Assembly (NCBI RefSeq): GCF_004366035.1
Contig: NZ_SOEE01000006.1
Span: 248,001-312,000 of the forward strand
Source of the DNA: Cytobacillus oceanisediminis
GTDB taxonomy: Bacteria > Bacillota > Bacilli > Bacillales > Cytobacillaceae
DNA: 64,000 nt
Direction: 5' to 3'
Part shown: piece by piece, positions 1 to 42,250 of the stretch
Position numbering within the stretch: the first letter of the stretch is position 1
Layout of the letters: every line of letters begins with the position of its first letter
Notes under the pieces: generated by a model
Databases searched by the model: none
What the model was told of the DNA's origin: nothing
What the model saw: only the letters and a program-made list of their open reading frames with translations
Position numbers and translations under genes: made by a program

Positions 1-234
1 TGGGGAAAAGGGTATGGTACAGAGGCAGCCAGAGCAGTTATTAAATATGGATTCGAAGAGCTGAATCATAACCGGATTTATGCCCTTGCTTTTACAGACA
101 ATCCTGGATCATGGAGGATTATGGAGAAGTCAGGAATGAAGCATGAAGGAACTTTGCGCCAGCATGCGATGAAAGATGGCAGGCCTGTAGACCTGACTTA
201 TTATGCGATTTTACGGGAGGAATATATAGGGTAA
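1..234 (+). CDS. GNAT family N-acetyltransferase, C-terminal part
   Basis: The reading frame is open from the first base and ends at TAA 232-234, giving 77 residues; the start lies outside the window. It begins with WGKGYGTEAA, the acetyl-CoA pyrophosphate-binding loop of GNAT enzymes (Q/R-x-x-G-x-G/A). It continues with NPGSWRIMEKSGMKHEG, the typical end of the RimJ/RimL-type fold, where an Asn and aromatic residues precede the EKSGF-like strand. Family membership is clear. The acceptor (ribosomal protein, small molecule or antibiotic) cannot be told from this fragment. Confidence 0.85.
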   Translation, partial: WGKGYGTEAARAVIKYGFEELNHNRIYALAFTDNPGSWRIMEKSGMKHEGTLRQHAMKDGRPVDLTYYAILREEYIG

Positions 235-306
235 GGTTCAGCCATTTGAATCCCGATCCGCATTATGTTTCAATGGAAGCAAATCATTTTTTTTATGGAG
301 GTCCAT

Positions 307-7635: not shown

Positions 7636-7781
7636 AACATGTCACCTTTCTTAGAAAATTACCGTAATTATACTATGTAGATTAATTGATAACCAGATAA
7701 AGAAGCCCCTATTGACAGAAACATGCTTTTTCTCTATAGTAACAATGACAATTATATTTCGAATATTCCCGTGTGAGCGGG

Positions 7782-7870
7782 AGAGGTTCATAGCTTCACC
7801 CTCTATAAAAAACTATGGCTTTGATTATAATAATCAACCATATCCATAAGAGGATATGGTTTTTATTTTT
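7782..7870 (+). promoter_or_regulatory. preQ1 class I riboswitch with terminator/antiterminator
   Basis: The aptamer (about 7782-7818) reads AGAGGTTCATAGCTTCACC, then CTCTATAAAAAACTA, matching the preQ1-I consensus: stem AGAGG/CCTCT and the A-rich tail that forms the pseudoknot. A terminator follows: AACCATATCC (7836-7845) pairs with GGATATGGTT (7852-7861) before a T run. A long alternative stem (TATGG..TTGATTA with TAATCAA..CCATA) overlaps both the aptamer end and the terminator 5' arm and is a ready antiterminator. PreQ1 binding should switch off the downstream queF gene. Confidence 0.93.
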
Positions 7871-8555: not shown

Positions 8556-8787
8556 GCATCCAGCTCCAGCGCCTAGCCCCTCTTGTCATAAGCCAAATCA
8601 CTCCGGAAATCAGGAAAAGGAACGCTTCGTCAGCGATATATCGCCCGACCAAAGCGAGCTTTGGAAGGTTTCCTGCGTGATTCGTCTTATGCCTGTCAGA
8701 CCTGCACAGGATGTGCTGGCTTCAAGGTTCGCCACAGGACTGGCGCTTTTTAGTTGAAGTTCATCTCAGCAAGGCGCTTCCGCCTTT
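8556..8787 (+). repeat. Dispersed repeat family A, copy 2
   Basis: Fills most of the 451-bp gap between queF and yhdT. It starts with CAGCTCCAGCGCCTAGCCCC and ends with AAGGCGCTTCCGCC, and contains inverted sub-segments (ACTCCGGAA.. and ..TTCCTGCGTGA; CATAAGCC and GTCTTATGCC). Unlike the other copies it is not next to a stop codon on the strand that would match. No gene is seen in it. Confidence 0.75.
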
Positions 8788-31914: not shown

Positions 31915-32565
31915 CTATATGCAGTAAAAAGGGCACTTTCCTTTGGAAGTGCCTCTTAATTTTGAGTTCTTTGCATTCAGGATGTACCGGGAGGGGGCAT
32001 TGCCCACATAAGAGAATGGATAGCAGGTGGAAACGGTAAGGATTTCTTCGGGAGCGGTAGAACGGATCACGGTGGTATCATCCGGATCTACAATCTTTGA
32101 ATCTGTAATTACGTAAGTAAACTCACCATATGGCATGCTGACTTGAAAAATATCCCCGATTTCCAGTTCGCTGAGGCTGCGAAATACCGTATCTCGGTGC
32201 CCTGATAATAAAATTTGATCATGCTGCCCTGGAAATACAGTTGTGGAGTAATGACCGACCCCTTTATCCAGCTCATCCTCATCTGTTCCTTCTATAATCG
32301 GGAGTTCAGCTTTCAAGCGGGGGATCTTAAAAATGCCAATGGCTTCACCCTGCTCGAAGGAAACATCAATTGGGTGTTCTGTTTGGAGAACGCTTTTGCT
32401 TTCTTTGTTCATTTCTCTTTGAATTCTTTCTTGTGCCTGGGCTAAGGAATCATTGTTTTTTTTCTCCTGAGCATACAGTTCCTGCAGCGAGAAAAGGACC
32501 AATTCGCCTCCGATTAGGATAAGGAAGGAGGCAGCAATAATCAGCAAACGGCCTCTGACCTTCAA
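31915..32565 (-). CDS. Class D sortase
   Basis: Sortases attach LPxTG-type proteins to the cell wall. The 216-residue protein has an N-terminal membrane anchor (residues 7-29), then the sortase beta-barrel with LLSGHRDTVFRSL (catalytic His123), TVSTCYPFSYVGNAPSRYI (catalytic Cys181, Arg193). The order and the TCYPF-x-Y-x-G-x-APxRY motif fit class D. The start is TTG 32565, directly after the TAA of the SinR-like gene, using a GGAGGT inside that gene, so the two are translationally coupled. No LPxTG substrate is seen nearby. Confidence 0.9.
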   Translation of the reverse strand: MKVRGRLLIIAASFLILIGGELVLFSLQELYAQEKKNNDSLAQAQERIQREMNKESKSVLQTEHPIDVSFEQGEAIGIFKIPRLKAELPIIEGTDEDELDKGVGHYSTTVFPGQHDQILLSGHRDTVFRSLSELEIGDIFQVSMPYGEFTYVITDSKIVDPDDTTVIRSTAPEEILTVSTCYPFSYVGNAPSRYILNAKNSKLRGTSKGKCPFYCI

Positions 32566-32913
32566 TTATGCTTTACCTCCCTTCATCTTCTTAAATTTAA
32601 TGAACTCCAGATAATAGGCAAAGTCCTCTTTCGTGATTCCCTGTCTAATAGCTTCTTTGACAAGGGAAACCCATTCCTCATCCAGCTTAGACAAGTCGGT
32701 AATTTCATCTTTGTTCTCTTCCAGCAGATCCTCAAGATTAGCATCCAGTGTCCTGGCGATTCGCGATAAAACCTGCAATGAAGGATTCTCCTGTATGCCT
32801 CTCTCAATGTAGCTCAAATACGATTTGGATACCTCCGCTTTGTCAGAAAGCTCATTAATTGAGTATCCCTTCTTAATTCTTAAGGTTTTAATCCGGCCAC
32901 CTATCATAGGCAT
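32566..32913 (-). CDS. SinR-like XRE regulator with Sin dimerisation domain
   Basis: A 115-residue protein. The N-terminal helix-turn-helix (GGRIKTLRIKKGYSINELSDKAEVSKSYLSYIERGIQENPSLQVL) is like that of SinR. The C-terminal part (LDEEWVSLVKEAIRQGITKEDFAYYLEFIKF) is the SinI/SinR interaction domain. It is clearly distinct from the SinR at 34376-34699. It forms an operon with a class D sortase and is preceded by SinR-type boxes. It could therefore be a SinR/SlrR-like player in the biofilm switch. It may heterodimerise with SinI or SinR; this is inference. Confidence 0.9.
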   Translation of the reverse strand: MPMIGGRIKTLRIKKGYSINELSDKAEVSKSYLSYIERGIQENPSLQVLSRIARTLDANLEDLLEENKDEITDLSKLDEEWVSLVKEAIRQGITKEDFAYYLEFIKFKKMKGGKA

Positions 32914-32952: not shown

Positions 32953-32969
32953 AAAGAACAAATTGTTCA
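32953..32969. promoter_or_regulatory. SinR-type palindrome upstream of the sinR-like/sortase operon
   Basis: AAAGAAC-AAATT-GTTCAAT. The core GAAC-N5-GTTC is repeated upstream of sinR (34763-34775). It contains the published SinR box (GTTCTYT) on one strand. Confidence 0.7.
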
Positions 32970-33013
32970 ATAAAAAATACAAAATAATGAGAATTCTCGA
33001 GATATTCTTAGAA

Positions 33014-33034
33014 AAAGAACGAAAAGTGTTCTTT
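33014..33034. promoter_or_regulatory. Pair of inverted SinR boxes
   Basis: AAAGAAC (33014-33020) and GTTCTTT (33028-33034) are perfect, inverted GTTCTYT boxes about 110 bp upstream of the sinR-like gene. The gap 32914-33269 holds no gene I can support. Confidence 0.65.
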
Positions 33035-33599: not shown

Positions 33600-33851
33600 A
33601 TGTATCAAAAAAAATGCAAAAAATGCAATAGCTCATCTTTCAGTAGCAGTGAAACCGGAGAATGGCTGTGCCCAGTTTGTGGAAATGAATTGACGAGCGA
33701 AATTTTTCTTAATGCTATGACACGAGAACCAGTCCATATTATTTGCAAGAAAAAGAAGATTCCACACTCATATTCCCTTCAGCAAGTATATAAGAATTAT
33801 AGAAAAAGAATCGGCCTTTCTTACTACTCGAATAAAAGGACAATTGATTAA
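33600..33851 (+). CDS. Small zinc-ribbon-like protein
   Basis: An 83-residue protein. CKKCNSSSF and LCPVCGNEL (residues 6-9 and 23-26) form a two-knuckle C-x2-C zinc-ribbon pattern. The basic C-terminal half (KKKKIPHSYSLQQVYKNYRKRIG) could contact nucleic acid. ATG 33600 has GGAGG at 6-7 nt. It lies between the sinR-like/sortase operon and the riboswitch-sinI unit, on the same strand as sinI. The function is unknown. Confidence 0.7.
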   Translation: MYQKKCKKCNSSSFSSSETGEWLCPVCGNELTSEIFLNAMTREPVHIICKKKKIPHSYSLQQVYKNYRKRIGLSYYSNKRTID

Positions 33852-33883
33852 GTATTAAATCTGAGGCCGTTTTAAAAGAATAT

Positions 33884-33890
33884 TGTCGAA
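33884..33890 (+). promoter_or_regulatory. Spo0A box (0A box)
   Basis: Perfect TGTCGAA, as TTGTCGAA, in the 271-bp gap upstream of the riboswitch and sinI. In B. subtilis phosphorylated Spo0A activates sinI. Confidence 0.6.
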
Positions 33891-33997
33891 AAACAAATTA
33901 ATTTAATATTAAAATAATTAACTGTAATTACAAAAAATGACAACGTTAGCAATACGGTCATAGTAGAATACATCTATGGAAAATATTTCTTTGAGAC

Positions 33998-34092
33998 GAT
34001 AGGCACAGAAAAAGGCAAACTCATTGAAAGATGAGGACGCAAAGTCACGGGTCTAAGGTATTAAATAATACTACGATGGCCGGGTTGCCTGG
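33998..34092 (+). promoter_or_regulatory. Cyclic di-GMP riboswitch, class I (GEMM-I)
   Basis: The conserved pieces occur in order: GCACAG, AGGCAAAC, a CTCAT/ATGAG stem with GAAA tetraloop, GGACGCAAAG, GGGTCTAAGG, a variable GTATT/AATAC hairpin, and GATGGCCGGGTTGCC, closing with AGGCA/TGCCT. This matches the GEMM-I consensus including the tetraloop and the GACGCAAAG linker. After it a short hairpin (GG-A-ATACG/CGTATCC, 34091-34109) adjoins the GGGGGGAG ribosome site of sinI, so control may be at translation initiation. No terminator is visible. Confidence 0.93.
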
Positions 34093-34122
34093 AATACGAT
34101 ACGTATCCTGGGGGGGAGAATT

Positions 34123-34269
34123 TTGACAGAGCAAAATGTAAAGGTCGAAGGAATTGATTTGGAGTGGCTGCAGTTAATTATGGAAGCAAAGAACTTAGGC
34201 CTGCAAAGGGAAGAAATTAGAGAGTTTTTACATAATAACAGAGCCAATGAGGTTCTGATCGAAACTTAA
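34123..34269 (+). CDS. sinI: SinI-type anti-repressor
   Basis: A 48-residue protein starting at TTG 34123, directly behind GGGGGGGAG. Residues 10-38 (GIDLEWLQLIMEAKNLGLQREEIREFLHNN) match the SinI helix-turn-helix that binds and titrates SinR (consensus LDxEWVxLMxEAKxxxIsxEEIRxFL). It is too short for usual callers. It follows a c-di-GMP riboswitch and a Spo0A box, and converges with sinR. In B. subtilis sinI precedes sinR in tandem, so this arrangement separates their expression. Confidence 0.92.
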   Translation: MTEQNVKVEGIDLEWLQLIMEAKNLGLQREEIREFLHNNRANEVLIET

Positions 34270-34338
34270 TATCCATATGGTAAAGGGTAAAGTATTTCTG
34301 TTAGGGGCACCTCTTTATGGAAATGCTTTTTATTTTTC

Positions 34339-34375: not shown

Positions 34376-34699
34376 CTATGATTTTTGTCCGCTTCTCCAC
34401 TTATTAAAATCCAGAAACTCCCGAAATTGCTCCTTTGAAACACCAGACTCCATCGCTTCCTTCACAATTTTCATCCATTCAGAATCAAGATCTTCCTTGT
34501 TGATCTGCTCATGTATCAGATGGTCCACGGGAACATTTAGAACACCCGCGATTTTTTCAAGAAATTGAATCGATGGGTTGGTTTGCAGATTGCGCTCAAG
34601 CGAACTTAAATATGATTTTGCCACACCGGCCTGGTCCGCAAGCTCGGATAAGGACATTCTCTTTTCCTGGCGAAGTTTTTTTACACGATCACCGATCAT
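34376..34699 (-). CDS. sinR: Biofilm master regulator SinR
   Basis: A 107-residue repressor of matrix genes. The HTH (MIGDRVKKLRQEKRMSLSELADQAGVAKSYLSSLERNLQTNPSIQFLEKIAGVL) is nearly the B. subtilis SinR sequence as remembered. The C-terminal SinI-binding domain DLDSEWMKIVKEAMESGVSKEQFREFLDFNKW is complete. ATG 34699 gives the family-typical MIG start. A GAAC-N5-GTTC palindrome lies about 65 bp upstream, so it may autoregulate. It converges with sinI. Confidence 0.96.
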   Translation of the reverse strand: MIGDRVKKLRQEKRMSLSELADQAGVAKSYLSSLERNLQTNPSIQFLEKIAGVLNVPVDHLIHEQINKEDLDSEWMKIVKEAMESGVSKEQFREFLDFNKWRSGQKS

Positions 34700-34762
34700 C
34701 GTATACCACACACCTTATTTTGTATGTAATAGGATTATATCATATATCTAGTTCCATATTAA

Positions 34763-34775
34763 GAACGATTTGTTC
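34763..34775. promoter_or_regulatory. SinR-type palindrome upstream of sinR
   Basis: AAGAAC-GATTT-GTTCAAT, the same core and spacing as at 32953-32969. Confidence 0.65.
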
Positions 34776-42062: not shown

Positions 42063-42250
42063 AAGAAAAGCGGAAGTGCCTTGCCCACGTAGGACCGCAG
42101 ACTAATGACGCCACGTCCTGTGGCAACGTCTGCATGACCCCCATCCTGGGGGCCCCAAGCACAAGACGAGCCTCTCGGAAAGGCGTATTTTGCCTTTTTG
42201 GGAGGATTGGTTTGTGACCTCGAGGGGGTAGGCTGCTTGCGCCAGACAGA
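42063..42250 (+). repeat. Dispersed repeat family A, copy 5
   Basis: Begins AAGAAAAGCGGAAGTGCCTTGCCC within 3 bp of the upstream stop codon and ends GTGACCTCGAGGGGGTAGGC, then GCGCCAGACAG. Read along the gene strand it has the same polarity as copies 1, 3, 4 and 6. Confidence 0.8.

Follow-up and report, generated by a model that had tools for sequence, protein, structure and literature searches.

A predicted c-di-GMP-I riboswitch precedes sinI in Cytobacillus oceanisediminis and across much of the order Bacillales

SinI is the protein that unlocks biofilm genes, and the circuit that it forms with SinR is usually taught from Bacillus subtilis. To our knowledge, the route by which cyclic di-GMP (c-di-GMP) reaches biofilm genes in spore-forming Gram-positive bacteria is poorly understood. 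A stretch of 64,000 nucleotides from Cytobacillus oceanisediminis (the window, to which all coordinates refer unless another locus is named) raises the question of whether this second messenger may act on SinI through the mRNA, as a first-pass annotation had read a c-di-GMP-I riboswitch directly before sinI and had taken it for a direct link to the SinI/SinR switch.

The candidate aptamer occupies positions 34004..34092 of the forward strand. It had been described as a GEMM-I aptamer with a GAAA loop, and the Rfam search proposed at that time bears this out: the covariance model RF01051 scores 82.4 bits (gathering score 35, E 1.1e-14) in a match that spans its full length of 87 positions (1-87) and has zero non-standard pairs flagged, and both the GAAA tetraloop and GGACGCAAAG are found in the sequence. 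The distance to the gene, previously put at about 30 nt, is indeed 30 nt from the aptamer end at 34092 to the TTG start at 34123 on the same strand. According to the portions of the structural literature drawn on here, the crystal RNA Vc2 contacts its ligand through G20 and C92, while A47 stacks on the ligand and the G14-C93 pair tops P1 (PMC3764141, PMC4744006). When the Vc2 numbering is transferred (using PMC3764141, PMC11218506 and PMC4744006), G20 corresponds by position to 34014, C92 to 34088, C93 to 34089, and G14-C93 to G34008-C34089, the C92 and C93 equivalents being our own assignment from their location after P3. The equivalents of the ligand contacts are kept, namely G34014, the first A of GCAAAG (A47) and C34088, as is the GAAA loop. 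Judged by its sequence, the RNA itself is an ordinary member of RF01051, for which binding of c-di-GMP is predicted.

The open reading frame behind the aptamer (34123..34269, forward strand, TTG start) encodes 48 amino acids, passes the Pfam SinI profile PF08671 (40.9 bits, cut-off 31.4) and aligns to B. subtilis SinI from the SinI-SinR complex (1b0n_B, E 6.6e-4). It misses the cut-off of the NCBIfam SinI equivalog NF046031 (30.1 bits vs 80) and is therefore called SinI-family here rather than an established orthologue of the B. subtilis protein, and the call leans on the domain and on the neighboring SinR. The earlier designation as a SinI anti-repressor thus stands as far as domain and adjoining SinR are concerned, but not at the level of the equivalog. 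The neighbor is a SinR orthologue on the reverse strand (34376..34711, start probably the ATG at 34705), convergent with sinI, which shows the SinR architecture of a helix-turn-helix domain (HTH_3, PF01381) and a C-terminal SinI-like domain (PF08671) and matches B. subtilis SinR 1b0n_A over 106 residues with E 4.7e-40. Behind sinI, a hairpin at 34289..34329 (forward strand) followed by a U-rich tract is a probable sinI terminator (-15.1 kcal/mol, matched by 8 of 200 shuffles), which the terminator scan of the window missed. An antisense action of the sinI mRNA on sinR was set aside because this probable terminator intervenes.

Several further elements were observed in the window. A second SinR-like gene (32566-32913, reverse strand) lies directly before a class D sortase gene (31915-32565, reverse strand). 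The palindrome GAACGATTTGTTC at 34763-34775, before sinR, as well as GAACAAATTGTTC and another site within 32956-33034, before the second sinR-like gene, are putative SinR-type operators and would make autoregulation possible. Upstream of sinI, a small zinc-ribbon-like open reading frame (33600-33851, forward strand) stays under the Pfam cut-offs. Rfam also reports two Bacillaceae-1 RNAs (42086-42152, forward strand; 8703-8769, reverse strand) and a PreQ1 riboswitch (7777-7822, forward strand).

The genome at large yields ten GGDEF matches (one a fragment), from which we conclude that c-di-GMP is probably made in this Cytobacillus. A TasA-type protein is present (PF12389, 250 bits), and its gene is preceded by open reading frames that resemble TapA and SipW as judged by eye. 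Exact GTTCTYT sites at tasA number three in 8 kb with 2.8 expected by chance, and since this is near chance no claim of SinR operators is made there. Besides the sinI leader, the genome has two more RF01051 matches, one before a small open reading frame and with a terminator-like platform (L001/L078) and one before the gene for a GGDEF protein (L003/L079). The upstream DNA of a second short SinI gene (C8:133438, L080) is devoid of a c-di-GMP riboswitch.

How far does the arrangement extend? RF01051 matches and SinI-domain matches are both present in all 36 Cytobacillus genomes, and by coordinates 29 of them have a short SinI gene with an RF01051 match immediately before it in the same orientation; with this recurrence, the pairing of aptamer and sinI is far from chance. 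The 29 leaders can be aligned from the promoter region through the start codon (alignment A2). In five genomes (G007, G008, G009, G026, G034), the sinI riboswitch is the sole RF01051 match. The arrangement is missing in seven of the 36 genomes (G012, G013, G015, G016, G021, G029, G035), two of which, G015 and G016, are without any short SinI match. G029 (L240, G029:C2:268800-270200) offers a case of natural sensor loss, in that the anti-Shine-Dalgarno platform before sinI is kept and the aptamer is degraded, scoring 24 bits with the whole-leader model R1 described below. The Cytobacillus-type leader also occurs in records titled Pseudomonas sp. ISL-84 (L111), Paenibacillus sp. FSL R5-0490 (L115) and Sporosarcina globispora (L096), titles that look misnamed, as these records seem to correspond to the Cytobacillus genomes G028, G024 and G009.

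A survey of sinI leaders in relatives, as had been proposed, was extended to the family and the order, and showed that the link is not peculiar to C. oceanisediminis. In the family, a single genome was sampled from each of 24 other genera, and 21 of these genomes have SinI-domain matches; the upstream DNA was inspected for 35 short SinI matches, drawn from 20 genera, and contains RF01051 or RF03167 on the same strand in 25 cases, and 19 of the 20 genera show at least one riboswitch-led copy. In the order, SinI-domain matches were obtained in 38 of 61 genomes, and 40 of the about 60 short SinI matches outside our own genome (an eye count), from 29 other families, were analyzed. Class I aptamers precede 23 of these 40 genes (13/20 and 10/20), and at one further locus, L194 (G190), the riboswitch immediately before the SinI open reading frame belongs to class II (RF01786, 63 bits; 212-295, reverse strand). 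Class I or II together thus lead 24 of the 40 genes in 21 of the 29 families, where these counts, like those for genus and family, are of related genomes and not of independent events. Riboswitches were found for 21 of the 32 order genes that lie beside a sinR-like gene and for 3 of 8 elsewhere, and sinI and sinR occur in convergent as well as tandem arrangements. The arrangement is conserved, and since conservation at genus and family level and in much of the order is the trace that a functional link would leave, the earlier reading of a c-di-GMP-sinI connection is supported and a function is very likely.

The converse was approached with a pattern of the anti-Shine-Dalgarno hairpin and Shine-Dalgarno sequence alone, free of the aptamer, which was run over contigs of about 85,000 species and returned 26 matches. 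A SinI-like open reading frame follows in 25 of them, for example in Mesobacillus campisalis, Lederbergia lenta, Bacillus infantis and Bacillus canaveralius; the remaining match, in a Roseibacillus MAG, has neither a SinI-like open reading frame after it nor an Rfam class I aptamer. Rfam was applied to 16 of the 26 loci and found class I at 15 (13 RF01051, 2 RF03167). In addition, the covariance model R1 was built for the whole leader on an RNAalifold structure that pairs AGGCAA with UUGCCU; this pairing is broken in leaders with CUACC and differs from the mechanism proposed below, and R1 was used as a detector only. At E<=1e-18 it matches 87 of 299 order genomes (34 of 117 genera, 22 families), and SinI is the next gene at all of the best 30 loci (the last being in G221). 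One R1 match within the order, L238 (G179:C8:611800-613100), has the sinI-type aptamer and platform with no SinI open reading frame behind it. In the rest of the class, 7 genomes match, and of the 6 loci checked, L232, L233 and L237 are followed by SinI and L234-L236 are not. Other variants include L155 (G059:C1:4122650-4123600), where two RF01051 matches about 520 nt apart lie upstream of one SinI open reading frame, and G041, with several short SinI genes, four of them with class I riboswitches, and two paralogous sinI leaders (L128, L129) that carry A at the position of Vc2 G20.

Between aptamer and start codon, two pairings compete. A hairpin beside the Shine-Dalgarno sequence (SD) had been noticed before, and it precedes the SD GGGGGGGAG at 34110..34118: by folding and leader alignments, CCUGG at 34088-34092 pairs with 34108-34112, and an inner stem joins 34094-34098 to 34102-34106 (together 34088..34112, forward strand). 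The competing helix is P1, with its 5' strand CAG at 34006..34008 and, when ligand is bound, its predicted partner CUG at 34089-34091; it has only three pairs in the window, and 94.9% of its cells are paired in alignment A3. As P1 and the anti-SD helix use the same bases and are mutually exclusive, ligand should open the SD.

The anti-SD helix is seen in the consensus fold of the 29 Cytobacillus leaders, where the CC pairs with the G's of the SD. Among 37 leaders preselected for this hairpin (4 from Cytobacillus and, with the window included, 33 of the 49 from family and order), 98.1% of its cells pair, as compared to 28-58% when the strands are slid, and covariation is weak (both-sided change in 1 of 10 pairs, 2 cells). 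Leaders with the canonical SD AGGAGG (e.g. L167, L169, L188) still have the same CCU opposite the SD, and the logic is unchanged in L152 and L135, whose stems are quite different, while L162, L172, L184, L191 and L197 fit the helix poorly. For P1, complementarity amounts to 2.74 pairs vs 2.33 with re-dealt partners (0 of 1000 as high; 47 of 49 leaders), at least three contiguous pairs are present in 33 of the 47 wider leaders, and compensation is visible in L135, L159 and L176; no P1 covariation was found in alignment A3. When C92-C95 is blocked in folds of the part after P3, mean SD openness rises from 0.40 to 0.73, with a gain above 0.1 in 38 of 49 leaders and a change from 0.47 to 0.62 in the window's own leader.

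The probability of the CC:SD pairing was rejected as sole proof of sequestration because base composition alone easily gives it: it reaches >=0.5 in 48 of 49 leaders, but shuffled loops give high values as well (leader means 0.28-1.0), and it is in only 20 of 49 leaders that no more than 5 of 100 shuffles attain the real value (29 of 100 in the window). The hairpin energy of the window is unremarkable (z -1.26), and z falls below -2 in 31 of 49 corresponding leader segments. Minimum-energy folding of the full leader gives a structure that differs from the proposed one, in that AGGCAA at 34013-34018 pairs with UUGCCU at 34085-34090 and the SD with the 5' leader.

Upstream of the aptamer, a nearly invariant TAnAAT hexamer at 33964-33969 across the 29 leaders suggests a -10 element (TAGAAT, forward strand, with T33964, A33965 and A33968 invariant in A2); no convincing -35 was found for it, and the promoter scan skipped the site. 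Further upstream, ATTGTCGAA at 33882..33890 (forward strand) is a candidate Spo0A box with one mismatch to TTTGTCRAA, which we take to be the consensus. Boxes with 0-1 mismatch occur on the forward strand in 17 of 28 Cytobacillus leaders (10 exact), a count made without a shuffle control and in related species; they sit at a fixed position, 115-117 nt upstream of the leader start used in that comparison, and the core TGTCGAA is present in 22 of the 28 leaders. In Bacillus methanolicus, a putative c-di-GMP riboswitch falls within the 5'-UTR of sinI as defined by RNA-seq (PMC4342826). Taken together, hexamer, Spo0A-type box and this 5'-UTR suggest that sinI transcription probably starts upstream of the aptamer and that Spo0A may act there. 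The candidate box also suggests a joint requirement of SinI for Spo0A~P and c-di-GMP, an AND logic that we infer from the co-occurrence of the two elements.

In our assessment, the sinI leader forms a c-di-GMP-I riboswitch, most likely one that switches translation ON. Transcription would start upstream of the aptamer, perhaps in a Spo0A-dependent manner. When c-di-GMP is absent, C34088-C34089 and the next bases would pair with the SD G-run at 34110-34112 in the hairpin, and little SinI would be made. When c-di-GMP is present, C34088 (the C92 equivalent) would pair with the ligand, C34089-G34091 would form P1 with C34006-G34008, and the anti-SD helix would be lost; the freed SD would allow SinI to be made and SinR to be neutralized, with the predicted effect on SinR targets. 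SinI would in this manner report Spo0A~P and c-di-GMP jointly. Translational control, which had been suggested from the hairpin, appears to be the best reading of the modeled pairings, in which the SD partner includes the C92 and C93 equivalents.

The same elements could be read in the opposite sense, such that the ligand-bound aptamer and the adjacent hairpin block the ribosome and c-di-GMP lowers SinI. The hairpin does end one base ahead of the SD G-run, and mcpA of B. thuringiensis is annotated as carrying an OFF c-di-GMP-I riboswitch (PMC7793685). However, we regard an OFF switch as unlikely, given that in the model ligand contact and P1 compete with the pairing of the SD, which ligand should thus open, and that sinI expression in B. 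thuringiensis was higher at high c-di-GMP, where the relevant part of the report names no riboswitch at sinI (PMC7793685). Slightly less probable still is an action on transcription elongation or mRNA stability instead of translation start. Downstream of L001, another class I leader of this genome, come a GC stem and a T-run as are usual for terminators, and such a mode therefore exists in this cell, but the scan of the forward strand from aptamer to TTG shows no terminator-like site, and the leaders in alignments A2 and A3 have the SD at the end of their platforms.

The identity of the ligand and the integrity of the aptamer leave much less room. Some class I relatives favor cGAMP when position 20 is A, and A variants such as L128 and L129, a paralogous pair in one relative, may have a different cyclic dinucleotide as ligand. 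That the natural ligand at the present locus is such a molecule, e.g. 3',3'-cGAMP, is nevertheless highly improbable, as G occupies position 20 in the window and in all 29 Cytobacillus leaders (an invariant column) and the genome encodes GGDEF proteins. We give even less credence to a functionless relic in this species: decay occurs, as the degraded aptamer beside the platform in G029 (24 bits by R1) illustrates, but here the 82.4-bit match retains every conserved position and is closely conserved over the genus.

How does this leader compare to known systems? In B. methanolicus MGA3, BMMGA3_08510 is listed as '(c-di-GMP)-sinI' in Table 4 of a transcriptome survey (PMC4342826). The gene link, a putative c-di-GMP riboswitch before sinI, is identical; the difference is that it appears there as one table row and part of a sentence, and the portion of the survey concerned gives no binding, mechanism or conservation. 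The previous impression that the link had not been described must be corrected by this row, although no dedicated study was found in the open-access papers searched, among which PMC4342826 alone names the link. As far as the relevant parts of the cited work go, Bc2 before cap/cbpA of B. thuringiensis is likewise a class I ON switch with a sessility-related target in a Bacillus relative, but it is a transcriptional switch of an adhesin gene and not of a regulator of the SinR circuit (PMC4933901, PMC11218506). Bc1 before mcpE of the same species shares class I and the equivalents of G20, A47 and C92, and differs by a 220-nt platform with two terminators and little in vivo response, whereas the platform here has 30 nt and ends in the SD (PMC11218506). 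In B. subtilis, SinI is a SinR antagonist under Spo0A control (PMC3163267), and both proteins as well as a probable upstream Spo0A box recur here; in contrast to B. subtilis, sinI is convergent with sinR and riboswitch-led. The first-pass annotation had held that the link is missing from B. subtilis, and its genome, one of 14 control genomes, yields no RF01051 match. New are the breadth of the sinI link, the pairing logic at the SD, the class II example and the co-occurrence with Spo0A.

On balance, we lean towards viewing control of SinI by c-di-GMP at the mRNA level as an old and widespread wiring of the Bacillales, realized by riboswitches of class I and at least once of class II, in which SinI detects the coincidence of Spo0A~P (for transcription) and c-di-GMP (for translation), with B. 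subtilis as the exception. The prediction is sharp and can be tested cheaply with one 125-nt leader and one reporter, for which the five Cytobacillus genomes with the sinI aptamer as only class I match would be clean systems. If the leader works as proposed, Spo0A and c-di-GMP inputs would converge on a single mRNA, a large share of the order would have the master switch of its matrix genes under direct control of c-di-GMP, and one signal could trigger biofilm formation via the messenger RNA itself.
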